A program made the position numbers and the translations under genes. Below the pieces are notes generated by a model, which worked only from the letters and a program-made list of their open reading frames with translations, had not been told where the DNA came from and made no database searches. Below are positions 5,428 to 63,711 of a stretch of 64,000 bases of DNA, piece by piece (within the stretch, counting starts at the first letter, position 1; each line of letters begins with the position of its first letter). The DNA is from Pocillopora verrucosa (taxonomy: Eukaryota; Cnidaria; Anthozoa; Scleractinia; Pocilloporidae), in NCBI RefSeq assembly GCF_036669915.1, contig NC_089312.1, forward strand, positions 1,050,801 to 1,114,800. The letters are read 5' to 3'.

Positions 5428-8400
5428 ATGTTTTCTCGAGATTCATCAGTGAGCATCAAAGCCAGTGCCTCCTCCTTGTGCAACAATCTTACGGTTTTAT
5501 CATCGAAGGAGAAGCAGTCGTTAACTTATGGCGTCGTTCATAAGGCATTTGTTTGTATCACCACCGTTACTAAGGGGACTGTCGTCAACCAGAAACAAGT
5601 CTCTTGTAAAGGAGAAGGAGCTCATAGTAGCTCTGCTGTGTTGCAGGTATTTCTTTGCTTTGCTAATTGTTACACCAAGCGGGGTAATGGTTGAATTCAC
5701 ATTCAATGTACTTATATGATCAGCTTGTTTACATTAGCAAGCTTCTTTAGCCATGACCTGAGCATGATCCGGATCGACTTTACTTATGCTGGATATACAG
5801 TACACAGTAAAATATATGGTAACAATTTGGCAATCAAACGTACATGAAAACTGAAAGTGCCTCTAGATCGGTGAAAAGTTAGCTCAGGTGTTCGTTCTTC
5901 TTTGCATTTAGACCTGAAAATCAATTTACAAATTTAAGATTATAAGTCTTTTAGGAGCTGGACAAGAGTTGGGTGACTTATGGTTTGAACTGAGAATTAT
6001 GTTGTAACATTTGAACCATTTGATTGTCAGTAGCATAAACACATTTTCAACAATCTCCAGCATCTTAGTTTACATGTTATTGTCAATTACCTGATTGGCT
6101 GAATTATTCATGCATTTTGATTGGTTGTTACATAGGTCATAAATCTATTAAGAGGACAGATGCATGGGTGATGTCACCATTAACAACATTTGAATTTTTT
6201 ATACATGAAACAAATAGATTTGTTGTTGCTGTGGTTTTGTACAGTAATTTATCACAGAAGACATCAAATTAATGTGGCAAGAACATCAGTGACACACTTG
6301 GCTGCACCTCATATGCCACTTTTTGTTTTTACCACATTTTGACATTATCTGTGATCTATCACAGTCATCAAACAGATGCATGACAACATGGAATCTATTT
6401 GCTAGGAGCAGTACAGGGAGTCTTATTTCTTCACTGAGTTAATTTGTCATGTTTTGGATGATGACAAGTCACATTACTGACCCAATTGCAAATTCTATCA
6501 GATGAACACAAGTCCCGTAATTTCATCCTGAACATTTCAAACTGTTGTTATCCTGAATACATTCTGTGGTCCAAAATAATTTCAGACAACAACATTCTGT
6601 TATGTTCTGATTTTAAAATCACTTCTTACTGATGATAATTAACTTTTCAGGCAAAGTGGTGTGAACTTCCAGACAGAACTGTCTTGGTTATTACCTCTGT
6701 TAAGGGTGCCCAGGTACTATTTCCTTCTTTACTTTGTGAAAATTTTTTTTAGTGCATTGAGAGCTGTAGTTACCAGTAACATTTAGCAAGCTGGACTCCT
6801 TGTAAATCTCTGTGTGTGCTAAATATTCTATTCGGCATAACATGTGAGGCAGTGTTAAGTTACAAATAGAAAGGCCATGTTCTCATTAGTATTGCCAATT
6901 AGGGGCTTGATTAAGGTCCCTATTGACAGGCATCAGCAAAGTTCACAGAAATCTTACAAAATGCTGTGGGGGTGGGGTGACTTATGATGAAGTAGCATAC
7001 AGTTCAGGGGATGTATCAAAACTACCACAGTAGTTGCTTTTTGGTATAAAACTGAGACTTGGATAGGTTTTTTCAGAAAGGGAAGGGTTGTTCTCTTTTG
7101 GGAGATAACTAACACCTTATGATAAGTGGCACTTTTTTTTTTTTTACTGTGCACTAGTTCCCATGACATACATCAACTGATTTACTAGTTCGTGTATGAA
7201 TGGTTTATGATTTAGATGTTTGAAACTGATGGATCTATAATGATATTCTGGCAAGCACTTGGTGAATCAAAGGAAGGAGGTATGCTTTGCATGTATTTTT
7301 CTAAATCATACGCACCATTTACTAACCTTGTTTTGTTGGCCTGTACTGTAAGTTACAGACCACTTGTTTCTGTTCAGATTTGTGACCATGAATTCTTATC
7401 TAAAATGGAGTCCAATTTGGAGACCTTTGTATCACATACCATACTAAATCACACCCATACTCCCAAACTGTAAGTCATAATGAGTATACTCCTTTCATTA
7501 ATCAATATAAGACTTATTATTTATTTTTCTTATATACTTCAGTCTATTCCCATTTTGCAAGAGGAATATCAGCAGTAGGGGATAAGTATATTTGCGTTGG
7601 TGAGTAGAACTACAAGACAGATCTTTAGGATGTGTTTGTTTTAGCTTTGAACCTCTCACTCCAGTTTTAACCATTTGCACACATGTATGTTGGCAAATCA
7701 CCCTCTAAGTGTCTGTTATGTAATCTGGTAAAGAAAGTAGAAAATTAGTAATAGTTTTCATGTTGTTGAGTCCTTGAGAGAGTTGTCTATCTGCCCTTAC
7801 ATGAAGTGTCTGCCTTCAGAGGGTGTACCTCATACAAGGGTGTTGGCATATGAGAAGTGTCCGCATACAGAATTGCTCACCTTGCAGAGAATCGTCAATG
7901 TTTCAGAAGTGTTTTCCCCTTTAATATTTTTACCCACGTATGGTGGTGTACATGGAGCTCTCTGTCCACATAGGTGTGCTTGCTCAAATTTGTTACACCC
8001 AGCAAGTTTGTTATTTTAGGTACTTCTGAGGGTGGTATCATGGTGTTTGACATTCCCCCACGTGGCACAGCTGTTAAACTACAGGAGACACTTACCTCAC
8101 ACAAGACAGCCATTTGTGAGCTTGAAGCACAAGGTGGACGGATGGTGTCATCAGATGAGGAGGGTAACATCATTCTGTGGCAATCAGGAGGACATTTTAC
8201 AGAGATTATTAAGATTGATGGAAAAGGGTTAGCAATCACATCTTTTTTTTGTCTGAAGTCAACTTCACATTTTTGTGATGCCATTGATTTACCATCTAGC
8301 AAAAAACTCAAGTGTTCTGTTGTCAGGTAAAATATAATATATTCCTTAAAATATATTTTTTCTTCCAGGTTTCCCTGTTCAACACTGTGCTTGTACAAGG

Positions 8401-31800: not shown

Positions 31801-32481
31801 ATTATTAGGAGGAGAAATTGACTCACAAAACTGTTTCTGTCTTCCACCTTTGCCCTTCCTTGATACCTGCAATCGGCTATCAACTCCAGCTTCATAAGGA
31901 TTTGCTGCCTCTTCATCTCTCATATCCTAATTAAAGATGAAATGCAAAAAAAATCAAAATGAAGAAGAATTACTACTGCACATTATAACTGAGTGTTTAA
32001 AATACCTTGTCAAGCCAATCTGGTTATTCTCTTAGTCATGAGTGAATTTTCCATAACAGCGAACTTTCATTATCAAATCTTACCTCTGAGGATTGAAAAC
32101 TCCCTACCCATGCCCCTGCCCCTCTTTCGCCCGAATTCGAGGATATGTTATTTTAGGTCATGGCTAACCATAAACCAATACGTCACTTGTGTTCGTATAC
32201 AGCGGTGGTTAATTTAGACAGGAAAAGGGACAATTCCATTCTAATTGAAGAAGCCGGGAGCTTTTTGGTTTTGTCGTGGAGTTTGCTGTGAGGTATTTGT
32301 TAACGCCGTGACAGTTGTGGGCCACAGTGAAACACAGTGCTTGTATCGATCGTGAAAGACATTTTAATACAAAGGAAAAGCTTGAAGTGGTTACCTGAGA
32401 CTGAGTTCCACAGCTTTGGCAGTAATACAGTCCATCAATACAGTCAAAGACTTCTCCATCGCACAAAACACACGACGGCAT
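25823..32481 (-). CDS. TAF1B: TAF1B, RNA polymerase I SL1/TIF-IB subunit (Rrn7-like, TFIIB-related)
   Basis: Nine exons in transcript order: 32481-32395, 31926-31827, 31447-31350, 30567-30327, 29928-29655, 29075-28974, 28733-28606, 27429-27267, 26513-25823 (TGA). Phases chain without a break and give 627 residues (human 588). TAF1B is the TFIIB-like factor of the Pol I selectivity complex at ribosomal RNA promoters in the nucleolus. The N-terminal zinc ribbon has C4-x2-C7 and C21-x2-C24. A conserved core follows: WFMYEAYQYIIRVQVDYLIK, then LQSTLAFCYLGLLWIDEP with SDLVRW, RIAKLLQLPCFPEPKLS, and AGAMAFIVVALKLCYGIDDK, corresponding to the cyclin-like folds. Exons 4-5 carry a long acidic segment (SDDDDELE, SDSSEDEF) with a basic RKRK patch. 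It starts back to back with a + strand exon at about 32490. Confidence 0.94.
26541..26753. repeat. MITE-like element, family D, copy 2
   Basis: Shares the internal blocks TTCTCCATACTGGTCTCTAT, GTGATCATTTCTTTAATTCT and ATTAGATGTTAGTCACTC with the copy at 23388-23597. It lies directly upstream of the last TAF1B exon, so the branch-point region of that intron is probably made from or near repeat DNA. Confidence 0.65.
29383..29569. repeat. Imperfect foldback element in a TAF1B intron
   Basis: The left arm AGTAGTCCCTCCTTTTTGGT is mirrored on the right by GGAAGGACTACTTG. Inner arms CAAACACAAAATTGATGTTT and AACATCAATTTTGTTTTTG pair over almost their whole length around a short centre (ACTCTGGGAGTGAGGCACAG). 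It has no coding capacity. Confidence 0.7.
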
Positions 32482-33589
32482 TTTTTCAGATTTGCCTCCA
32501 TTTCACTCTTGTCATGTATGGCCCAACGTATCGTCTCCTCAAATGCCCAGTCCTTCGCGGTTGAATCCGTACTTTGAACCTAATTACCAAATCAAAACAA
32601 ATATTACTCCAGGGAGCTTTCCCGGACCAGCGATAAGCTTCTACTCTGGACGTCACAAGGTATGTAGGATTTTTCCGCCAGGGGCGCAAAGGAAACTCGA
32701 TTTAGTTAAAAAATGTAAAATTAATGCGAACTCTACTGGAAAAAGATACGCTCCACGGCAACATTAAGAACTTGCGTAATATTTGCTTTGCACTGAGAAA
32801 AATGTCATCACTTGTGTGACATTTTTAATTTCTTTGGCTCCAAAAAAGGATATTTACTTGTTGCTTGAACACCGAATATAAATCAGCAGTCACTCTCTTA
32901 TTGATGTTTGAAAGGTACAGTTTCGTACCTGAGAATTTTTCGGGTGTCATTAGGCATCCCGAAGGCATATCAATATCACCTTGTTGCTTTCTGTGGATTA
33001 CAGCTTGTAAACAAAGACTGTTCTTGCAGATTTTTATGCAATTTGCTTTACAGTAACGCTACCAAAGTAAATGAAACTCTTTACTTTAAGCTCTGCTACT
33101 TAATTTTGCTTCAAATTCTTTTTTTTGTAGGTGTTTAATCAGCTATAGATGTCATAAGACTAAATAAGTCTACATGTTATTACTTAACACGTATTTTGAC
33201 ATTTTTTTTTGTGCTTTTTTGTGTTAGATTTTTAGACTAGTAAGTATGCGTTAGGTAATACATGTCACACCTTTTGCTGTACGTAAGTAAAGGGAAAATT
33301 TCCAGCACATACTATTCATAATAGTGTCAACATGTTCTCTTCTAGAAAATATTCTGGCAAAAAGGGAGAAATTCATAATTTATTTTTTTACCAATAACTC
33401 ATTTGAAATGCTAATTTTATAACAGGTCATCATCAAATCTCTCAGTAAACTGGTAAAAAGGAACAAGACACCTGTTAAGAACTCAATTACTTTATTATAG
33501 TTTTTCAGAAGTCATTCCCAGTTTAATTATTTTACGATTGTTTTTCAGAAATCATCCCCCTATTATTAACAGTCAGATTGGCAATAGCC
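32482..33589 (+). promoter_or_regulatory. Bidirectional promoter region and probable 5' non-coding exon of FADS6
   Basis: TAF1B begins at 32481 on the minus strand. On the + strand an open frame with ATG at 32543 runs to a good donor (CACAAG|GTATGT, exon end 32659). Its 39 codons (PGSFPGPAISFYSGRHK near the end) match no family I know. Splicing to the acceptors at 33551 or about 33131 quickly meets a stop, so it may be a 5' UTR exon of FADS6 with an upstream ORF, or a tiny unrelated gene. A TTTTTCAG acceptor at 33550 precedes the FADS6 start codon by 39 bases. Confidence 0.5.
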
Positions 33590-34654
33590 ATGCCCCCGTA
33601 TGAAAAGAATGATGTGGCTGAAGAATTTTTGATGGAGGCTGACAAGAAAGATGAGGACATGTCGCAGAATAGGCCATCCATGAAACAACTCAACTTACTG
33701 GTCAAAGATGTAGTCTCACATAGTACTTGGTGGGACCTCTATGGTGTTGACTTAACAATTATGTTTGCAAACTTTGCACTTCTTCCTATCAGTCTTTTTC
33801 TGATTGGATCTGGCTGTATACCTTTGTTTGCAACTGGCTATCTTCTGTTCTCCTATGTCCATGCCACATTTACAGTGAAGCTGGCCCATGCAGCTGTACA
33901 CAATGCCTTGGCAGGCTCATCACATTTCTTCAACCGCCTTCTGTCTGTGTTCTTCATTGAGATCTGGGGAGGTTTTACAGAACAAGGCAGCTTTGAGGCT
34001 CATATTCAGTTACATCACCCTTACACTAATGTGATTGGTTTGGGTGATTCTAGTTCATGGCGAGCACCATTCTTGGGCCGCTTTACATACCTCTTCATTG
34101 CTCCACTGTCCTTGCCACTCTTCAACACTGCAATAGGCATAACCTTGCTCGCTGGACGCTGGTATTCAATTGCTAGGTTTCTCTGTATAGCAACAGCTGG
34201 CTACATCATGCACTTCTGCTTGTTCCGGTACTTAGCTGGATTGTCCCTTTTGGGCACCATCCTTTGCATGATCACTACTCGTTCGGTATTTGCCATTCCA
34301 TACATCCATGTGAATATCTTCCAGCACATTGGTTTGCCCATGTATGATGTAAAGAAACGCCCAAGACGACTCTACCAATTAGCTTCAGCAGCTCTCAATC
34401 TGCCGAGAAATCCACTTCTGGATTATTCCTTTGGCCATTCCATCATCAGCTGCCATGTGGAACATCATTTATTTCCACGACTGTCTGATAACATGTGCCT
34501 GAAAATCAAGCCTGTGGTGTCCAGCTACCTTAAGAATAATAGCCTTCCATATAATGAAGCCACTTATATGAATCAACTATCAAAATTTTACAACAATTAT
34601 GATGAGCTTATGGTGAAAGCTCCACCAATTACAGAACTGATTGGCATACAGTAA
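33590..34654 (+). CDS. FADS6: FADS6-like membrane fatty acid desaturase
   Basis: Single uninterrupted coding exon of 354 residues ending GIQ-TAA. The three histidine boxes of membrane di-iron desaturases are present: HAAVH (100-104), HIQLHH (138-143) and HVEHH (289-293), with a further GH at 282-283. Hydrophobic stretches at about 55-100, 165-190 and 198-245 fit an ER multi-pass enzyme with the boxes on the cytosolic side. There is no N-terminal cytochrome b5 domain (no HPGG motif), unlike front-end desaturases FADS1/2, and the layout fits the FADS6 branch whose substrate is not settled. The start is the ATG at 33590; the frame is open upstream to 33578 but contains no earlier ATG. An intron probably lies in the 5' UTR. 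The gene is convergent with SLU7. Lack of coding introns among multi-exon neighbours is unusual. Assignment to FADS6 rather than another desaturase clade is from memory. Confidence 0.85.
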   Translation: MPPYEKNDVAEEFLMEADKKDEDMSQNRPSMKQLNLLVKDVVSHSTWWDLYGVDLTIMFANFALLPISLFLIGSGCIPLFATGYLLFSYVHATFTVKLAHAAVHNALAGSSHFFNRLLSVFFIEIWGGFTEQGSFEAHIQLHHPYTNVIGLGDSSSWRAPFLGRFTYLFIAPLSLPLFNTAIGITLLAGRWYSIARFLCIATAGYIMHFCLFRYLAGLSLLGTILCMITTRSVFAIPYIHVNIFQHIGLPMYDVKKRPRRLYQLASAALNLPRNPLLDYSFGHSIISCHVEHHLFPRLSDNMCLKIKPVVSSYLKNNSLPYNEATYMNQLSKFYNNYDELMVKAPPITELIGIQ

Positions 34655-45147: not shown

Positions 45148-48100
45148 ATGGAGTACTTGAGCACTTACCTCGCGGTATTTCTCCTGTTTCTTTCGAAAGT
45201 TTTAGCTGAAGGCGAAACGAAAGGATACCTTCGTAGAGAGCATTCCGTTTTAAAAGGTGAGTTTGACATGGCGTTGGTTAATTGTGCTCTAAATCCTTCG
45301 TTGGAATGTGACTTTTACACTCTCAAAGAAACTTTCGTGAAAGATTTGATGAGTTCGCGTTTCTCGATTCTATTTCCTGTCGATGTAAACTTCGTCCTCT
45401 AAGAGTTCGATCTTTTTCATATGAAGAATTTTTTCTTCATTTATTCGTTCCAAAGCCTAATTTGACATCCTCAGTTAATGAAAATGTAACGGGTTTCAAT
45501 ATAGTTATTTTAAAATCAGGAACTGCAAATATTCAATCAGTGCCAATGTCTCATGTGACGTGCATGTGAAGACCTCTACAGAGAGATTTTTTTTTTCAAG
45601 CTTCATGCTTTCCTCCCAACTGATTTTTGTACCTATCCCTTCTAAAAGTTTTGTTACAGAAAGATGAATCGTAGGTCATTTCATTGTTCATAAATGATTA
45701 ATTATCCTTAAAGCGAACTTTAGAGTTTTCCTTTCTTACTTAATAAGTTACCATTATGATAACTACTACTATTTCACCCAAGAGAATCGTGCCACCATAC
45801 TAGAGATTTTTCAGCGAAAATAGAACTCAATATATTTGTTTTTGTGTTGACAATCCACTATGATTTCTTAAAGTATTTTATTAGTTACCATTCTTTCATG
45901 ATAATATGAATTAAAAAATTGTACATTAATATTTTAGAGCTCATGTGTAAAAATATTGCAATTACGTAACAGAAAATATACCTCAACCATGATTCTTTGA
46001 GAACAAGAGTTTTTTTGATTTTCCCCCTGAAAAAATTTTTTGAATGCCCTTACAATTTGATCATTCAGATTATGCAGCCAAAAACAAATGTTTGTTTTTC
46101 AAATCCCCAGTTATAACAAAACATGTTGGTTTACTTGTGGAATAGGTATTACATTCGTTTTTTGATGAAAATTGTTCTGCAAAAGTGTGGGAAGAGGGAG
46201 AGTGGGGAAGAGTTATGGAAAGGGAACACTATGATGCATCTGTTAAGTTTCTTTAATTTTGAAAGAGCTCATTACAGGCCATGAAGATGAGTGGCTAACA
46301 TCCCTTGTATTATTTTTCTCACTCCCAAGATCTGATTGTTAATTCTCTCCTTTTGTTGATAAATATTTCCCTGTAAAATAAGTTTCGATAATTTGTTGTT
46401 AGATCAGGATAAATTCTACATGTACCTGATAAGTGTGAGTATTCTCATTACCATTTTGTTGGATAGTGTATGCATATTATAGGGAGAAGTTACATGTGCA
46501 TCACTTAAAAGGCTTAAAATGGATTGTAAAAAGGCTCTAACATTTATGGGATCGGTATCAAAATTTCTTGATCTCAGAAGACATTCTGGTCAGTTGTTCA
46601 TGACTTGCATGCAGATGTTTTTATCAGACAAATTCAAATAAACTGGTTTATGGAATGACTATGATAATAATTTCTCCAGGGGCTGGTCCATCTATTCCTT
46701 ATTGGGATTTCCTTGGAAGTACATTTATTTCCAGCAGCTACATTAGATTAACACCTGACCATCAGAGTAAGAAAGGGGGTTTGTGGAATAATGTGGTAAG
46801 TTGATGGAATTTACTATTACAGTACATGTACTTGTGCTTATAGTTTCATTTCTGGTGATAGCTATAGTAATTCACCACTTGATAAAAGCTTGATTGAGTC
46901 AAAGTACCCACATTTAAGTTTTGTGTTCTGCATTCTCCTTGTTAAATTTGGCACATTTTGTGGAAATGGAAACCTGTTGATCCCTTCTAACCCTCATTAG
47001 CAAGATTTGCCGATTACTATTACATGGCTTTCCTAAAATGTTAGTTAAAATGGGTATGATTAATTGTTTATAGTGTTCCAATACCCTCAAAAATTGTTAA
47101 AAACACCTCTAACTGGTTTGTGTTGATAAAACTGAATTAATAAAAATCTGATATAGTTTTGTAACTTGTGTTTCTTACCAGCCATGTCATGTCAAAGACT
47201 GGGAAATGTTAATTCATTTTAAAGTACATGGAGTTGGTGACACATTATTTGGAGATGGATTTGCATTTTGGTATTCCAAAGACAGGATGCAAGAAGGTAT
47301 TGACTTAATCTATTGAATTTTATAATTAAGTATTAATTTATATAAATTAAAGCACATGATAAGTACAGACAAAGTCCCAAAGTTCTTCACTTTCAGCAAT
47401 TGTCTTATCTGTCACCTTTGCTTTTCTTCTTCTCAGGTGATGTATTTGGTAGCAAGGATTATTTTTATGGTCTTGGAGTATTCTTTGACACCTACAGTAA
47501 CCACAATGGTGAACATCAGGTGGGTGAACTTTTTCCTGTGATCAGGTCATTTTGGCAGCACTCTGTCTATTGTGTTGTAAGACATTTTGCACCCCTTTTG
47601 ATGATCTTCACTTCCTGATCTGTGAATTATGCATAATTTATTGAATAGCATGATCACCCTTACATTTCTGTAATGGTTGGAAATGGATCTCTTCACTACG
47701 ATCACGATCGAGATGGAACACATAGTCAAGTGGCTGGCTGCTCAGTAAGTACATGTACATAGAGAAACCTCCAGCATTGTTACTTTTTTTCTTGATATGG
47801 TTTGAAGCCAGTAGTAATATGTGATTGTGTAGTCTGATCATCAGTGAGAATAGTCCAGAATAGAACTGTTGTCAGTTATAGGTAGTAACATTCCTAGCTT
47901 GTTCCAGGCAGTAAGTGTATGTAAACAAGCAAAACATTGGGGCAGGTAGGAAAAAAGAACAAAGGGGGAGGAGAACAGTTAGTTTAGTGGAAACAACTGA
48001 TTTGAAAACTTAAATTGGTCACCGCAAAGAGTTTAAAGGCTGACATTTTGAGCATTAGCCCTTGGTCAGAGCAAGGAAGGAGGAGGTTTCACTTGCTTGT

Positions 48101-53349: not shown

Positions 53350-53355
53350 TTTATT
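53350..53355 (-). terminator. Candidate poly(A) signal for alpha-catenin
   Basis: AATAAA on the minus strand, 83 bases after the stop codon. Confidence 0.55.
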
Positions 53356-53437: not shown

Positions 53438-56400
53438 CTAGTAAAAGTCGGGTGTACGTTTCGTCTCCGAAGTGTCAAATTCAGAGAGTGCCTGGATGGG
53501 CGACTCTTGTTTTACTTTCTCTGCACGCTGTAATTGTGGCACGCGGTCATCCTTCTCGAGGTTAACCAGCGGTTTCTTCTCCGGTGCACGCATACGCCAG
53601 GTGAGACTGGAGCCCTAGATTCCGTGAAGGGAAAAGTTAAATGTTACCGAAAACAAGGTTTCAAAAAAATGGTATAGGTGACTTCAAATTCAAATTATTG
53701 TATTCCCGAGGTCAAAAAGCTTGTTGCAAATAACAAAGTACCATTTGAATTAAAAGCCTTAACGATATATCTAACTACACAACGAAACCCTCGCCTAAAG
53801 TTTCCTTATCGATTACATCTGAAAAAAGTGATAGCCACACTGTTAAATAATTAGTTGAATTTCTCTCTTACCCTTGCATCTCCTGACTTGTGCTGTAAAC
53901 CAGAAAGGAAACGTATAAATTTATGTGACATCAAAAGATAAATTCAAGTAATAAAACATTGATGAAATGTTCATTTAATTATGTGGTTGACCTAACTCTC
54001 AACAAACACAAGCTCAACTAGACAAAGAGATGTGATGAGAAGTAAAAGAGCGATAGCCATACCTTGGTGTTAGCAACATACGAGGCCTTCACTGTAGAAA
54101 TGACAGCGTTCATTAGATTTTTGGCCGCTGTGATGAGAGAAGTAGCACTGTCCAACTGAAAAGAAAATAATAGTGATGAGACCAGATGGAAAACGTATGC
54201 CTGCTCTTTTAAAGTTTTTAATTTGGAATTCGAGTTGATGTTCCCCACATTTCACAATCCTATTGGGTTTATTCTTTCGTCAGAAGTAAAGTACAATTTT
54301 TAAGGACCTTCCACGAAAAAAAACGCAACGCATTTGAACGTCGCTTCTTTAGCTTAACACCCGATGAAGGCAAAAGTTTCCCACCCCCCACCCCAAAAAA
54401 AAAATTTGCTGTGAAATAACAATGATTCAAATGGAGATTAGAAGTTATCATGTTACTGAGGAGCAGTGATGAAGACGAACTTACCCCGGACACTACAAGT
54501 TCACCACTGATCATCTGTACGTCAGCTTTCACTCGGGCTGTGATGGTCAGCTGATGGGAATACAGTGCAATGCGCTGTATGTACGCTAACAGATCGTTCT
54601 TTGAACTTGAATCAGGACACTAATAAAAATTTAAGTAGAAGTTGGTATATTAACCAAATGAAGAAACGCAACAATTTCAAAAATCAAAACCCTGTTCTAG
54701 GATTTCAGTCAGTTCAGAAGAGTGAAAATATCGAGCGAGAGAAACATAGCCTGTTCCTTCCGAATGCAATTTTCCCCCACTTCACTTGTCTCCACTGAGT
54801 CAGAGTCTAACACAAACTAAACTCACCAAAGAGCTTAGAACCTCTAATCCACACAACAAAATTAGAGCGCTTTTTTAAAGAGCATTTTGGGCCCAGAAAT
54901 CTATTTCAGCCGCTGCCAAAACATGTTGATCAATAATGCCTCCTTGAGTTAAGAATTTACCTTCTGTGCAATTTCGGTAGCTTTTTCATTCATCTTTCTT
55001 CCAGCTTTGGCAATTCTCTGAAGAATGAAGAACGAATAGAATAATCATCGATGGTCAATTAACACTGAAATTCACCCAAAACACTGTTCCTTACCTTAGC
55101 AGCATCAATCACATCCATCGTAGTTTTCAGCGGTCCTGTTCCCCTGAAGTCAAAATGACAACAACAAAATTAATGAAAATTTCACAATTTCATGGCTTAT
55201 TGACGACAGTTCTGTTTCCAATAAAAACGGGGCCTGAGTTAGAGGTGTTATCAGAAGCATAATGACATGATCGCAACAACCAGCATAATATTGATATCGT
55301 CCGTGACTCCGTTGCTAAACCCGTAACTTCCTTGAGTGACCAAGACAGATTTTCTCCTCACATATATCAGACAGACAAGTTATGAAAATAAAGATAAATA
55401 TTGATTAGGGAATTATTAGTTGATCCAATACCAAAATTCTCCGATCTAACATAATGAGAATTGTATAGCAGACAGACTTTGAGGGTAGTGCCATACTCGG
55501 AAGCCTCGGAACCAGCATTACAATGGATAAATTTGCAACTACGACGATCTTGGTTGCACAGGAGAATTTGCAAAATCGGATGAACACTAACACGTTACGA
55601 ATTCCTCACGACTCCAACTCCGTCGATCTTGCGGCTCCGCTTACGAATCCACCTTCCAATGTTCAATACCTCGTGAGCGCTCCAACGACCTCGTCTCCAA
55701 CTTCATTTCCGTCTCAAACTCAGTCACTAGCAAAAACCAGTAAAAAAACGTACTCTACCTTGTGAAGTCGGACATTTCCATCATCATCATGCACATCTTC
55801 TTCGCCAGGATAATAATATCATTTCCACTTTCGTCCCATTTGGTCAACTCTCTTTCCAGCTTTTTCTTCTCTAGTTTCAGTCCCTCAGCCAGCTGTTCAA
55901 TCTTAGCTCTTTCTTCTGCCGGCAGAGCTCTCATAAGGGACTGGAGACAAGATCAGAAATAACCAAGAATTAATGTTGCAAACTCAAGAAGACGATTATG
56001 TGACGTGTGTAGGAACTGAATACGTAAGACGGATTTTTTGGATTTAATTCCTGCAGATCTTCTGGAGTATCCACGAAAAAACAAAACAAAGTTATAATCT
56101 ACGTGGGAGAAAAAAAGTGAAATATCATGAATGTAAGTGACGTTTCTTTCCTAGACAATGTTCTTCTGCTTAAAGAGAAAGTCGAAAAAATTAGATTCAA
56201 AGGAAATTTCGGTACACTCGGACCGCAAAAATTTGCCCCGATACCGTCATCCTTCTTAATTACACTACCACACAGCTTTCAAGCTACAAAACTTCCTCCT
56301 TCGCGAATGTATTTTTGCTTTAGTCATACGACACGCAACGCGCGACGCGCGAAACTCGACACGCGAAACACTCCCTTGCCTACGGTAAATGAAAGAAAAC

Positions 56401-59400
56401 AAACAGTGGTATCTCCTACCCTTGCACTCCTCTTTGATATACTCTTATCCTTTTCCCATTCGTCAGTGTCATCAAACTCAGACCGTGCCTCATAATCAGA
56501 AACTGCTCCCTCAAATTCGTAATCAGACACTGGTTCGTACTCAGACTCCGCAGCTGTCATGGCGCCTATGGACAATCCAAGAACAACAAAGTAAATATCT
56601 CACTAATCTCGTGTTATAGAATAGTAAATATCCCATTCAACCCACGACATCTTACTTATTTCCTCCTCTGCTGATGGACTCGTCAGCATTTCTTCGATAA
56701 CTGCAGGTCCCTGGTACCGCGGTTGGCTTACATTTTTTGCCCATTTAACTTGCTCGGGCCCTGTGTACCCCACGAAGGCCCAAGAGCCATGGAACCCAGG
56801 ATGAACATTGCCTGTGGCACCTATCTCATAAAGAGCCTCCTTTGCGTCATTCACAGAAGTACCTGTTGAATCAAGTGAGAAAAACCATGAGAGTTAATGT
56901 TTGTAACTGGAAAAAGTAAAGTCAAAACTATGACGGTATTTAAGAAACAAAACACCTATCGATTTAAGGCACAAGTAATAAATGGCAACAACAGAGATGA
57001 CTTTCTCTGCGATAATTTTAAATTCAATAGTCGGACGCCTAAAATTCCCTTTAGACAATCAAATTACAGGTATAACCGTCAAATTAGTGCTTCCTATAAC
57101 CAATCACGTTCAAGAACGGTGACACAGTTTTGAACAATCGTTTGCCTGAACGTCATACTTGGTAATCACTGATTTGTGTGAAGATGCCACAAAGGTGCCC
57201 ATAGATGCAACAAACCATACTCACCAGTGGTTCCCTGAGTACCAATCAGCACTATCCTCTCCTGAGGAAGCTGTTGTAAGAACTTGGCCATCTTTGCCCC
57301 CTCCCCTTTAGACGGATCTGCTGTGTCAAAGTTAGCCGCCATGATAAAGTTTCTGTCACTGTCCAGTATGACAATATTGTGTCCTCGCTGCATGGGCGAT
57401 CTCTCGATGCCATTAACTTTGATTGATGTTCGGCCTGTTCCCTTTGGATCATCTTCTCCGGTAGCGACGATCGCAACACGAACCATTCCTGAAACAACGC
57501 AGCAATAGACGTTACACGGGTGTCACTTTTTATCACTGTTAATAAAATTACCAATACAAATGAGACTTGTTTCAAAAATAGTTCAATGAACCAAAAGACT
57601 TCCGGTGTTCTGATGGAAAAGAGATTTCCACTACAACACGCCCCAGCATTGGCCCTATCTCACCAAAGAGTATTCCGTAGCTCAATGGTGCAACATCGGA
57701 GGTCTGAGGTTAGAATCTTTCGGGGGACTCAGATTTTTTCTTTGTCCGACCTTCGTAACATGAAACACAACACCTTCCTATACTATTACAGTCTTGTACT
57801 GAATACTACTAGGTGTTAGGATATCATGTTAGTGAGCCCGTAGTCCATCTCTTCTAAAGCTTGTCCTAGACTGTGCTGCATGAAAAGACTAGCAGTATTA
57901 CTAATAATGTGAGAATCAAAGCAATTACTGTAAGAGTTCTGAACCAAAAACAAAACAACATGCCATTCTGTGATCCACTATGACTCTCACTTAAGAGGTA
58001 CACACACCTACTAACAATCCAAAAAGTCGAAAAATGGCTATCAGCAGCAAAACGAAAAATATTAACAAATCAAGACAACGAACCTTTCTGTGCAGCTGGA
58101 GTAGGAATGAGTTGCGCCACAATTGCCGGTCCATGGTACCTGGGTCGCACCTCAGCTTTGGTGTAAAATCTTGGTGCGGGTCCAGTACAGCCAGAGAAGG
58201 CGTAAGATCCATGAAACCCAGGGTCAAATGGTCCCTCTGCTCCAAGACGCTCCAGCGCTGGTGCTGCGGCGGCCACATTATTACCTAAAGATCAAACCAA
58301 GTAAAGCAATTTTCAATTCAGTGTCAAAAGTAAAGCATGGCTTCGCCCTCCTTCGTCATGTGATTGGTCTGAAGACCCAACACCACCCTTCCCACCGATT
58401 AGAATAAAAAAAAAACCTAGTTGCGACTTGGCGTTTCGTCGCCCTTCAGGAAACTTGCCTGTTTTCATTTTCCAGTCACATTGAAGCCTTACAATATTTC
58501 CATCAGTTTTACTTGTCGAATGCTTTTATTACTTTGGTTTTGGTTCATCACAGTGTATCCAATAAATTTTGGAGCCGCAAGAGGCAACACATTTATCTTC
58601 TATCCCTTGCGTATGTAACAACTGTGTAGCTTATTTCATGTTAACATAACGCTGACGCGAACTTTGCATTTTTAATGAAATTTTCTCTCAAACGCTTGGT
58701 AGCAAGTTAAGAAAAAATAGCAGGCGCTTCGTTATCTAATCAGGATATCGAGACGATTGTAAAGCGCCATGACCAGGCCGATCGACCTCAAGAACTGTTC
58801 TCTTCGTTTTTAACCCTTACCCTGCTCTCGGCTTGTCAGCTCCTGTGTGGCCACAAGAACAACATGATCCTCAGGAAGTTGGTTCAAAAACTGTCCCATA
58901 GCCGGGCCTTCCCCTGCATTGGTGTTAAAATTTCTGACTGCGTACACGTCACCAATCGGATCAAGTACAACAACATTGTGCCCAGGCTTCCTGGGGCAAT
59001 GTTCCACACCGTTCACCTTGATAGACGACACACCCATTCCCCCTTCATCTTCACCTCCCTCCGATCGCACTTCAAATTGTAATTTACCTAGAATGAAAAA
59101 CAGAAATTGGGCAAACTTTTAAGTAAGCATTTAAAATAACATTGGTTTTTCTCTGCATTTTCCTGCAAAACTGGCGCCATCTTTCAACCAATCAGAAGCC
59201 AAATGATAATCAATAGGGACTTGGTCACCCGCGTTTTCCCGCGCTTCATGCAGTTTGCTTGTCTTTAATGTGATTTCTAAAAGGCTCCTTTCATATTTTC
59301 CTTGGTGCCTTTTGTGTAACTTTTTAATTACAATCATATTCAAGAATAGATTGAAGAGAATATGGTTTCACAGTATCGTGCATCATGGAACTCCTCACTG

Positions 59401-62400
59401 AACACTCTTGGCATGTGCGAGTTTTATCTTTTCTCTGAATAATCAATCACTTTGTTCTGTCAACATACCACTCGCTTTGAGTTGTTCATAGGCAGCTTGC
59501 TCTCTGGCACGAGCCTGTGCCTCGGCAAACAGCACAGCAGCTGCATCCTCCATTTCCACTTCTTCACCAGGACCACCTCGTCTCTACGAAGACAAAAATA
59601 ACAAAATGCAGATGTGAGTCAATGTCTCTCTCGCGATCATAACAGTGTATGTATCAAACATATATCCCGTAATTCATCACTTTAAAGCCCTCCCCTCCCC
59701 CTCCCCCAAACAATGTTACATGAAAATTAGTGAGCATTTTGTTCACAGCAGCACCAGGCAACATAGGAAAGTGGAAGGGGGGGGGGGGGGGAATGAGGGC
59801 GGTTACAGACGACGCTTGCCACTCACTATAGCATCTTTGCAATTAATCTTTTCTTATTTTCTATTCATCGTTATTTCGTTGATTACTTCTGACTCGCGGA
59901 ACGGATCGGCCAGGAAATGAGAAACTGGCCGCAGGAAAGAAAGCTAATGGAAATGAAACTAAAGATGGATAAAGATGGGTGTAATAAAATGAACTTACCC
60001 TTCCAGCGAGAACAGCCTTCCTGATGTCTCTTATACCTTCATACACCTAAAATAATAACATGAGTATTACCCTGGTATTTAAACATTTACTTTATTGTTC
60101 AATTAACATATCCTGGACGTAAACCTCAGAATAGCCCGGCGTCAATTTTTTAATCGCGTTTTTCGGGCGAACGGAAGAAAACGCTTGAGGCTAGTCACGC
60201 TCATTAGAAGGGGCGCGAAAACATGATCGATCATATTTTTCCCACTCTTCCGCTCTACCAATTGACTCACCCCGCGCGCTTTCCTCGCACTGGCATCGTG
60301 TTTGCCTGTGCACGCCGGGACGAACGCAAAAAACATATCAAACAAGCTGATTCTGGTTTAAACGACCACGGCTTTTCCAACAATTTTAGAAAGGCTTGGT
60401 TTCGAGTTCATGTAAAAGCGATATTTCCAAATTGTGTTTGTTGGCAAGCTTTCCTCTGATAAATTACTACGGTCATTTTCCGAGACTTACCCATTTATAA
60501 CTACTGCATTGAACGTTAAGCTTTAACTTACCAGTTTAGAGGCATCAATAAACTGAGCCTCATCCACCTCTCCGTGTGGATCTTTAGCCAGTGTGTTTAC
60601 AGATCTCTCAACATTCTGAGCGAAGTGTGGAATCACTGAAAAGGAACATACAGAAGCATGTGTTGTCAGACTCTTAATGAAAGATCCAGAGGAAACACCT
60701 ACACTGTAGTTCTGTTTCCCTGGGAGTATCACTGTTTCCCGCAAAGAATTCAAGGGTAAATCGAATTTAAAAGGAAAACAGAACATAGTTGTACTTTGTC
60801 TTGCCATGAAGGATATTAAGGGATTTAATTTCTTTGAGAATTTTCTTGAATCATTTTCGTCGGACGGAATCTATAAGAGCTTGTCATTATTCAATTCGAG
60901 CAAATGCTTCACGCTTCTTTTTTTAACATGAATAAAAAATTGCATCGTAATTTCTATTAGTTAAGATTTGTTTACTCAAGCCATACATGTAACTACAGTA
61001 CGTCGATGCCCTGGTCATTTTGGAGTACTCGCTTTTAAAAATACTTTTCATAAATCACAAGCTAGAGTTCTTACCTTCATTCCTCATGTACATGACTGCT
61101 CTCATCACATTATCAGTGTATGGCCCTTGTTGGTAGTTCTCCATTTCTGCAGTGACTACATCCTCGAGTCTTGCTGTGCGTCCACGTATCTGTCCAGCAG
61201 TCCTGTCCACATTCTCGGGATCTCTCTCTTGCAGAGCCTGGACACATTTGTTCACATCTTCCAAGACATGAGCCTCTGATGGATCACAAAAAAGAACACC
61301 CTTTACACCCTAACATCAATGTCCAGATTCTCCATAGTTTTACCCTTCTCTATAATTATACCGTATTTCCTTTGTTACTGACCTTTATCAGAGGGAGAAT
61401 TTGATTTTCTTGACCTTAATGTGTGATTCTGTATTCTAAAACCAAATTATCTTAACTACAAGTAATTTACGAGGTTTGCAGCTGTTGGGGGGGGGGGGGA
61501 ATTAACGATCAGATCTTGTGAGTTGAAAGAGCTAAACAACACTGCACACTTATTCCAGTAAGGGGTCTCTTTGAGGGATAAAACTGGTGATAGCATTCAA
61601 AATTATTTCATTATCATAAATTCAATCATCATTTATTATTGATGAAGATGGTTGTCACAAACTTCCTTCCACCTCCACTCCTAAACTCATGAAATGCACT
61701 TACCTGTAGTAGCTAAAAAGTCTTCAATTCCTGTAATGTCATCAACAGCCTCAGTGAGAACCTGCAATTGCTGTTCCCAGGCCTCTTTAAACACATCCAT
61801 ATTTTCTCGAGCCACCTTACTATGAGGACGGGCAGCAAGTGTTCGAGCAGCGTTAATTACCTACAATCCATACATAAATACACATAATAAATGACCAACT
61901 GCAAAGTTACTGCTTCAAATCTAAGTACAGAACAAGAATTGAGGCAAATTTTCCAAACTATACTTTTGAATAGTAGAGGTACAATACATAAAGTTTTTGG
62001 AGCATACTTTTTCCATTAAAACTTTGATCCTTAATTACAATCTCATTGTTTATGCAAAGCTGATCCTTACCTGAGGACACAAGTTCTGCAATCTCTTGGC
62101 TGCTAGTCTCACCATCTTTACCTTCTCAGGATTCACTGACATTGAACAGGCAAGATTTGCCACCTGAAGAATCATGAAGAGCAAAAATTGTTTTGAAACA
62201 GATGAAATAATGTCAGGTTACTATGTAATCCTCTTCGATAGAGATTCAGATGAAAATTAATCTATCCCTTCATCACCATGGATTCACTGCTTTGGGTTTT
62301 CTACTAGGTTCATATATCTGTCCTCTTAATTTGTTTTCCTGTATGGTAATGTATGAAAGGATGTATGAAAGGATGCATGTAAGGATGAGACTGAACAGTA

Positions 62401-63711
62401 ACAAATATGCACAATGTACACTGTTGAACCAAATAAATAAACTAATTAAAATGAAAAATCACCTCTTCAAGTTTTGCAGCATGGTCTGTAAATAACTTGG
62501 CACATTCTTCTACTTCTTTCTCATTCCCAGCTTGAGCTGCTTCAATCATCATGATCAGAGGCATTGTGGTCTCCAAGAAAGAATCAGAAACATGATCCAC
62601 AACTGCACGGCGCAACTAGAAAACAAAATCAAGAAATATTAGTGACTTTCCTTTAAAGTAACAGCCCACATTCTGGCCAAGCACTGGTTGATTCAAATGG
62701 ACTTGCAGATCCAGTCTGCAGCAGTAAAAGGAATGGAGTTACATGTAAGTAGACTTGCTTTAAAAGATGTCAGTGATTAAGCATCTACAAGATGGAACTG
62801 AAAAGGCAGGATTCAGACTGATGTATGAAAGGAGGAGGGCTAGTTTCACAATGCTAGAACTAGGGAATCTGGGTAGGTCAACACCCTAACCTCCTAGCAT
62901 TCATCCCAGATTTTGATGACAGGTGTTTTCAAAAGCCTGCCAAAATCACTCTTAAGGGGAAAAATAAAATATCAAAAGCTGCCATATTCATGAATTATTT
63001 TACCTGGCCTCTCAGCTCCCTGGTTCGGTTACACATCCTTTCCAAGGCTTGGTCTAGAGACCCTCCAGGAGCAGCCTTCTTCTTTCCTGTGGCCTAAACA
63101 CCCAAGAAAGGAAAACAAAATGTCAAAAGACTGTGACAAAGACTTAATTTCCACAAATACCAGATTCTGCAAAAACATCCCTATACCACAGCCTTGGCAC
63201 TGAACAAGTCAGTCTAAATTTTAATCATTAACAACCTAACATCAGTATGCACAGTCTCCACTGTTCTCTACAACTTTGTACGGTACTGAAAAGGCAAATT
63301 TGCTGAATAATCCACAGCTTCTAAAGTTGATGATAACTCCTTATTCTTACGACTAAACAATTGATTCACCAGTGATACTGTAAGGAGAATTATGGGTCAA
63401 CAGCTGGAGTATTAAAGCAGGTTTTAGATTGGACCACTGTCCTCAAAAAGTCCTATCAATTTATGATACGTGTTGTGTTATCTGCATGAGTAATATGGAG
63501 TTCTTACATGATTCATATACTCTGACAGTAGATCCTGGAGAGCTTGCCGCACACCATTACAGCTTGCTATAATCTTGTCCCGTGTATCATCTCTTGTTGA
63601 CATTGAGTCAGCTAACTGTGCTGCTCCACTGATGATGCTTTCAAGACGCTGCTCCAATGTGGGACGGGTGCGCTTTTCAGAGTATGAAGTTGGATCCATG
63701 TTGATCTGGGA
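53438..63711 (-). CDS. CTNNA: Alpha-catenin (middle and C-terminal parts) carrying two inserted ILEI/GG domains
   Basis: Twenty-one exons in transcript order: 63711-63508, 63093-63004, 62615-62463, 62163-62071, 61860-61704, 61275-61075, 60635-60532, 60046-59999, 59583-59469, 59087-58821, 58284-58084, 57488-57225, 56862-56656, 56565-56420, 55940-55759, 55143-55095, 55017-54961, 54619-54485, 54155-54063, 53892-53872, 53614-53438 (TAG). The frame is continuous for 987 residues; earlier exons lie beyond 64000. Alpha-catenin links cadherin-bound beta-catenin to F-actin at adherens junctions. Family sequence: RLESIISGAAQLADS, QALQDLLSEYM, DRTAGQIRGRTARLEDVV, AQFIDASKLVYEGIRDIRKA (M region), then after the insert an acidic linker (SEYEPVSDYEFEG) and the actin-binding domain (LTKWDESGNDIIILAKKMCM, LVVSGLDSATSLITAAKNL, RMRAPEKKPLV, IQALSEFDT). 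It is not vinculin: there is no proline-rich strap and the tail is of catenin type. Exons 10-13 encode about 313 residues with no counterpart in vertebrate alpha-catenins. Confidence 0.95.
56656..57488 (-). other. ILEI/FAM3-type GG domain 2 inside alpha-catenin (exons 12-13)
   Basis: Encoded by 57488-57225 and 56862-56656, both phase 1-1 and split at the same point as domain 1. Residue pattern: TSIKVNGIERSPMQRGHNIV, ILDSDRNFIMAANFDT, KMAKFLQQLPQERIVLIGTQ, then SVNDAKEALYEIGATG, HPGFHGSWAFVGYTGP and PRYQGPAVIEEML. It is the closer of the two to FAM3/POMGNT1. It lacks the cysteines of domain 1 (S and Y at those positions). The similarity of the two copies shows tandem duplication of a two-exon unit. 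Confidence 0.88.
57653..57760 (+). repeat. tRNA-derived SINE, family S2, copy 2
   Basis: Head CCGTAGCTCAATGGTGCAAC, B-box region GGTCTGAGGTTAGAATC, tail GGGGGACTCAGATTTTTTCT and CTTTGTCCGACC. Same family as the minus-strand copy at about 35785-35900. It lies in the intron between the exons for ILEI domain 1 and domain 2. Confidence 0.72.
58084..59087 (-). other. ILEI/FAM3-type GG domain 1 inside alpha-catenin (exons 10-11)
   Basis: Encoded by 59087-58821 and 58284-58084, both phase 1-1. Residue pattern: SSIKVNGVEHCPRKPGHNVV, VLDPIGDVYAVRNFNT, MGQFLNQLPEDHVVLVATQE, then after the intron ALERLGAEG, DPGFHGSYAFSGCTGP and PRYHGPAIVAQLIP. This follows the ILEI domain of FAM3 and POMGNT1 (RG-x-N-V-x-VLD, F(D/N)T, FL..LP..-IVL, A...L..LG, W/Y-AF-G-x-G). 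It carries two cysteines (EHC and GCT). Its exon 11 donor (GTTCGT) is weak. Confidence 0.85.
59150..59330. repeat. CCCGCG/CCAAT-rich interspersed repeat, copy 3
   Basis: Contains AAAACTGGCGCCATCTTTCA, ACCAATCAGAAGCC, GGGACTTGGTCACCCGCGTT and TTCCCGCGCTTCATGCAGTT, in the same order as copies at 157-312 and 51530-51725. It is inside the alpha-catenin intron just upstream of the first ILEI exon. Confidence 0.65.
61294..61450. repeat. MITE-like element, family D, copy 3 (partial)
   Basis: Begins ACACCCTTTACACCCTAACA followed by TCCAGATTCTCCATAGTTTT, and later ATCAGAGGGAGAATTTGATT, resembling family D at 23388 and 26541. Diverged; right end not defined. Confidence 0.5.
63224..63415. repeat. MITE-like element, family D, copy 4
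   Basis: Contains ACAACCTAACATCAGTATGC, CAGTCTCCACTGTTCTCTAC, AATTGATTCACCAGTGATAC and TGTAAGGAGAATTATGGGTC, matching the internal order of the copy at 26541-26753. It lies in an alpha-catenin intron. Confidence 0.6.

Follow-up and report, generated by a model that had tools for sequence, protein, structure and literature searches.

An alpha-catenin gene with two ILEI domains in the hinge before its actin-binding domain

The only canonical alpha-catenin gene that we found in this assembly carries two ILEI domains in the hinge between its M region and its actin-binding domain, and we somewhat favour the reading that these domains were shuffled into place and act as a spacer with a putative partner-docking surface. 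Alpha-catenin couples cell-cell junctions to the actin skeleton and is the link that senses force in animal adherens junctions; tension reaches its actin-binding domain through the hinge. The window analysed here is the whole stretch of 64,000 nucleotides (C1:1050801-1114800) taken from a 353-Mb assembly of 52 contigs, which the assembly-wide searches cover; the animal is probably a coral.

On the minus strand of the window, 21 exons between 63711 and 53438 are joined by GT-AG introns in one frame and give a 987-residue ORF that ends at a stop codon. The domain order is M region, Ala/Glu-rich exon, first ILEI module (ILEI1), second ILEI module (ILEI2), acidic linker, and actin-binding domain with tail. 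The original prediction had placed four ILEI exons in one unbroken frame with both flanks, and this was borne out by the AG/GT borders and the read-through. Their place after the M region and ahead of the acidic linker and actin-binding exons likewise holds in the assembled product and in the alignments. The parts of the gene are as follows.

59999..63711, minus strand: M region, 8 exons (63711-63508, 63093-63004, 62615-62463, 62163-62071, 61860-61704, 61275-61075, 60635-60532, 60046-59999); 215/345 aligned residues identical to human alpha-E-catenin
59469..59583, minus strand: extra Ala/Glu-rich linker exon, phase 0 to 1; GT-AG, in frame
58821..59087, minus strand: ILEI1 first exon, 267 nt, phase 1-1 (PF15711, exon borders)
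58084..58284, minus strand: ILEI1 second exon, 201 nt, phase 1-1 (PF15711, exon borders)
57225..57488, minus strand: ILEI2 first exon, 264 nt, phase 1-1 (PF15711)
56656..56862, minus strand: ILEI2 second exon, 207 nt, phase 1-1 (PF15711, exon borders)
56420..56565, minus strand: acidic linker exon, aligning with human residues from 638, where vertebrates have the P-linker; phase 1 to 0
53438..55940, minus strand: actin-binding domain and C-terminus, 7 exons (55940-55759, 55143-55095, 55017-54961, 54619-54485, 54155-54063, 53892-53872, 53614-53438 with the stop); 117/191 aligned residues of human 670-864 identical
53350..53355, minus strand: AATAAA-type signal, 3' of the stop codon

In profile searches, the 987-residue part in the window matched the Pfam Vinculin family PF01044 (4.9e-208) and, in two stretches, the ILEI family PF15711 (1.4e-30 together). 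Among PDB sequences the whole product was best matched by catenin alpha-1 (2e-217), and the best vinculin reached only 1.4e-37. By these scores, both the alpha-catenin and the ILEI matches lie beyond chance, and this vinculin-superfamily gene is assigned to alpha-catenin, being closer to alpha-catenin than to vinculin in the M region and in the actin-binding domain. Seven N-terminal exons, read by eye, lie just outside the window, the first being MSRGTTSVTGDIKVEKSKMKWDPKTLEIRTHSVEKTLEPLVHQ, and with these added the full protein comprises about 1,278 residues. No signal-like stretch is apparent by eye at the catenin N-terminus. Within a G run of N-terminal exon 2 (L010 about 2505, near C1 1117205, outside the window), the frame seems to be broken by one base, probably through an assembly slip. 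A long ORF, CNNM-type by eye, stands head-to-head with the start of the alpha-catenin gene (L010:4980-6617, plus strand).

The catenin part seems intact. Compared with human CTNNA1, the M region (215/345) and the C-terminal part (147 of 260 aligned residues identical) are alike, and the actin, afadin and salt-bridge residues are kept except for D500E. In the stretch 325-360 of human alpha-E-catenin, which we take to be the vinculin-binding stretch, 24 of 36 residues are identical. L785, I792 and V796, which PMC6269467 gives as required for actin binding, are identical to human, and V714 is replaced by I. Eight M-domain residues were taken from the salt-bridge and afadin-binding mutants of a preprint (PMC12393524); D392, D503, L520, V523, K525, R548 and R551 are identical and D500 is changed to E, so that 7/8 are kept. 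The CK2/CK1 sites of the P-linker, S641, S652, S655 and T658, align to Y, S, T and W in a poorly aligned acidic stretch and are not cleanly kept. The acidic linker exon has two Ser-Asp-Tyr-Glu (SDYE) motifs near these positions, which could be substitute phosphosites. The protein is probably cytosolic and would be a normal cadherin-actin linker. The difference from human CTNNA1 lies in the hinge: there, about 40 residues (632 to about 670) lead from the M region to the actin-binding domain, whereas here an extra exon and 313 ILEI residues precede the acidic linker. The extra exon (59583-59469, between the last M exon and ILEI1) has no counterpart in the human alpha-E-catenin alignments, and its composition makes it a possible helical spacer.

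Searches of the assembly with the Vinculin family profile, the M region and the actin-binding domain found no second canonical alpha-catenin. The profile gave 27 matches, located at the alpha-catenin gene, at C3:902-913 kb, at C1:8.02-8.04 Mb and at C13:16.81 Mb; the loci on C3 and C1:8.02-8.04 Mb are vinculin-like by eye. With the actin-binding domain as query, all five matches fell in the alpha-catenin gene itself, and so did 7/9 matches of the M region, the others being at C13:16.80 Mb (7.5e-6, 55% identity) and C1:8.04 Mb (0.002). The gene on C13 (C13:16802900-16809700) was considered as a second canonical alpha-catenin and rejected. Its N-terminal piece matches catenin alpha-2 (6.6e-17) and is 38% identical to the alpha-catenin N region, and its M piece has 38% identity to alpha-catenin over 81 positions, one of which is a stop read through. 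In tblastn searches of two stretches (L024 and L031) it gave no match to the actin-binding domain or the ILEI pair of alpha-catenin, and a comparison with NCBIfam gave no match. We read this gene as presumably an alpha-catulin. Catulins are reported from cnidarians, and from no other non-bilaterians, in PMC13245172. A divergent second alpha-catenin may still exist in the assembly.

The ILEI assignment, predicted from the letters of the sequence, was upheld by the Pfam profile PF15711, as both modules alone scored above the curated cut-off of 27: ILEI1 with 49.9 bits (4.6e-13) and ILEI2 with 63.7 bits (2.3e-17). Two homologous modules of about 150 residues had been expected; they comprise 156 and 157 residues, with 65/159 aligned positions identical, and their internal introns fall in the same alignment column. 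Searched with phmmer against PDB, the insert matched FAM3C (1e-5), TMEM2 (1.4e-4), POMGnT1 (1.5e-4), FAM3B (2.1e-4) and FAM3A (0.006), and a profile-based comparison of the modules gave FAM3B at 9.5e-6 and the POMGnT1 stem at 2.1e-5. FAM3C/ILEI and FAM3B thus have the ILEI core in common with our modules. FAM3 proteins are secreted and single-domain, whereas here tandem modules lie within a protein in which no signal peptide is apparent by eye. The match to TMEM2 (8c6i, the cell surface hyaluronidase) consists of two weak stretches, of which the second reaches the end of the longer module; their single-stretch i-Evalues of 22 and 0.16 are not significant. TMEM2 is a cell-surface protein with other neighbours. 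Between ILEI1 and ILEI2, dN is 0.53 and dS is 2.29, near saturation. These values indicate that the modules are old and, as far as the near-saturated dS permits, constrained; a divergence of this depth would predict that the insertion occurs in related species too. ILEI2 has no cysteine and ILEI1 has two; ILEI2 has one NVS sequon, which is neutral as evidence.

The genome has 34 matches to PF15711, two of them in the alpha-catenin gene itself, and other ILEI modules, which are presumed to be extracellular, were examined in 13 stretches fetched around such matches. Modules begin after a phase-1 intron in 6/6 cases examined by eye (L017, L025, L026 twice, L027, L028), a count that leaves out L018, L029, L030 and the POMGnT1-type modules. 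In L017, an EGF-like exon was seen by eye upstream of the ILEI module. Because other modules also start in phase 1, a class 1-1 module may have been inserted in phase 1 and duplicated before or after insertion. ILEI1 and ILEI2 are mutual best non-self matches (1.1e-13 and 6.1e-14, against 1.1e-7 and 3.4e-8 for the next), with scoring done exon by exon, which disfavours modules split over three exons. They are also sisters in a 10-row tree, with support of only 87/87, from which L029, L014, L015 and the bacterial row are excluded. A 14-row tree was mostly unresolved and was not used for support, since its group figures omitted ungrouped rows. None of the other modules examined has an internal intron where the alpha-catenin modules have theirs, and thus no donor gene is singled out; in the POMGnT1-type L015 and L016, the internal intron is in phase 0 and, by eye, about three residues upstream. 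The five introns that surround the modules were compared with one another for a trace of tandem duplication; at E 0.01 no similarity emerged. Taken together, the best reading is that the ILEI pair would have entered the hinge by old class 1-1 exon shuffling.

Origins outside animals were also searched. A viral or bacterial origin was rejected: ILEI2 had no tblastn match among plasmids (72,556 records) or phages (50,697 records), and the 6 and 113 pattern matches from two viral-contig scans included no relative. A scan of genome contigs found one relative among 382 pattern matches, in a Chloroflexi MAG (L001). Its best segment, over residues 22-123, is 35% identical, with the SIKVNGVE motif in common; there, the ILEI-like domain stands at the C-terminus of an apparently multi-pass membrane protein (L001:1739-4432).

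Whether the pair could bind sugar can be judged from the other family members. FAM3C, FAM3A, Fam3L2 and the POMGnT1 stem are GlcNAc binders, and the POMGnT1 contacts R129, D179 and R207 are reportedly conserved in Fam3L2 and the FAM3 members (PMC9802357). If our modules bound a sugar ligand like the POMGnT1 stem or FAM3C, the junction would be ligand-sensitive. The family match speaks for this reading, as does the first triad residue, R, kept in ILEI2, and the E of ILEI1 where POMGnT1 has D. Aligned by eye, though, the three positions are R/G/H in ILEI2 (1/3 kept) and P/E/H in ILEI1 (0/3), compared with R/D/R in nine of the 11 other genome modules readable at all three; L015 keeps two and L029 none, and the partly readable L012, L018 and L030 are left out of the count. 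Thus, compared with the POMGnT1 stem, the ILEI core is alike and the GlcNAc residues are replaced at two of three positions in ILEI2 and at all three in ILEI1. The original prediction had allowed for ligand binding, a suggestion now weakened for GlcNAc, the sole ligand class that could be checked, and we consider POMGnT1-like sugar binding improbable. In addition, a C-x9-C pair near the module start, present in 4/8 other modules (L026 twice, L027, L028), is absent from L025, L017, L029, L018 and both alpha-catenin copies; since half of the other modules also lack it, its absence is weak evidence for a cytosolic fit. The degraded triad and the absent Cys pair would fit a cytosolic setting and speak against POMGnT1-type sugar binding, as proof of neither.

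Several POMGnT1-type ILEI genes are located at C13:1764000-1820000 and C7:21746688, and the four readable ones have a common C-terminal motif like CxWxxxDxx(K/R)RRxEFCxK(F/Y)xGY. At least 10 ILEI exons of like score lie within about 165 kb at C8:3536000-3700000, which suggests local expansion of a gene family.

Tension runs along the M region and extends the linker that leads to the actin-binding domain (PMC7588230). In monomeric human alpha-catenin the actin-binding domain stays close to the M region, held there by a linker helix (PMC10020564), and linker phosphorylation has been proposed to prime M-domain opening (preprint PMC12393524). In this setting, two folded domains would break the close packing of the actin-binding domain against the M region. 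As serial elements of the force path they would lengthen the link between the two, and a surface of the ILEI domains might dock a cytosolic partner, most likely alongside the spacer role. High load could unfold the pair, which would then add about 114 nm of reserve length (313 residues x 0.365 nm). Inclusion of the insert might also be regulated by splicing, as with the metavinculin insert. Metavinculin, a splice variant of vinculin, has 68 additional residues in its tail domain (PMC12180986). There the insert is inside the tail, whereas here two folded domains are in the alpha-catenin hinge; for our gene, skipping is shown to be compatible with the frame.

All four ILEI exons are in phase 1-1, and 8/8 skips tested (each exon singly, each pair, the central two, and all four) leave an open frame. 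Since a skipped form stays in frame, the insert may be adjustable like that of metavinculin. The same property, together with the donor of the second ILEI1 exon at 58084 (gttcgt), which is weak by eye, also favours an alternative cassette, in which the common alpha-catenin lacks the pair and the long form is limited to some tissue or stage. Exon shuffling also leaves symmetric phases behind, which counts against this argument; we regard the cassette as a real possibility that falls short of probable, and a spliced form without the insert may be the main form.

An independent secreted ILEI gene, nested within an alpha-catenin intron, would suit a family that includes FAM3C, which cells release, and POMGnT1, which is anchored by a transmembrane segment (PMC9802357). 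The original prediction had itself named this competitor, and it found no support: neither a signal sequence nor a Met was found ahead of ILEI1, with no in-frame Met from the last upstream stop to the ILEI1 start; the intron after ILEI2 has 90 bp and no A(A/T)TAAA; and the phases match at both flanking joins. We therefore hold a nested gene to be very unlikely. We give equally little credence to an assembly chimera or a decaying insertion. The apparent frame break in the G run of exon 2, outside the window, does indicate that assembly or gene is imperfect. Against this stand 21 collinear exons in 10 kb, matching phases at both borders of the insert, and dN far under a near-saturated dS.

Shuffling of the pair into the hinge as a spacer and putative docking surface is the reading that we prefer. 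Tentatively, and with less than even confidence, we go further: one animal lineage may have an only canonical alpha-catenin that always carries the ILEI pair, of secreted type, and its adherens junctions would gain an element, absent from other animals, that is folded, unfoldable or gated by a partner. If true, nature would have run an insertion experiment on the cadherin-catenin-actin mechanosensor. Such an insertion would show that the force link can be greatly altered in length and regulation and still work, and it would offer a system for testing how the catch bond depends on hinge length, domain contact and linker phosphorylation. Moreover, it would place a mainly secreted or lumenal domain family at work in the cytosol. 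A literature search by titles and abstract openings found, among the matches listed, no published description of an ILEI domain in alpha-catenin, and the phrase 'ILEI domain' had 0 occurrences in the literature searched. Both families are known and their combination is apparently new; an unremarked gene model with the same layout may exist.

Elsewhere in the window, a 249-bp tandem repeat with two tRNA genes occupies 700-1445, and a third tRNA of equal score is on the other strand at 700-772. Neighbouring coding pieces are those of WDR54 (7974-8327), an RRN7-type zinc ribbon (32212-32502), a fatty acid desaturase (33527-34651) and a legume-like lectin (47346-47615).
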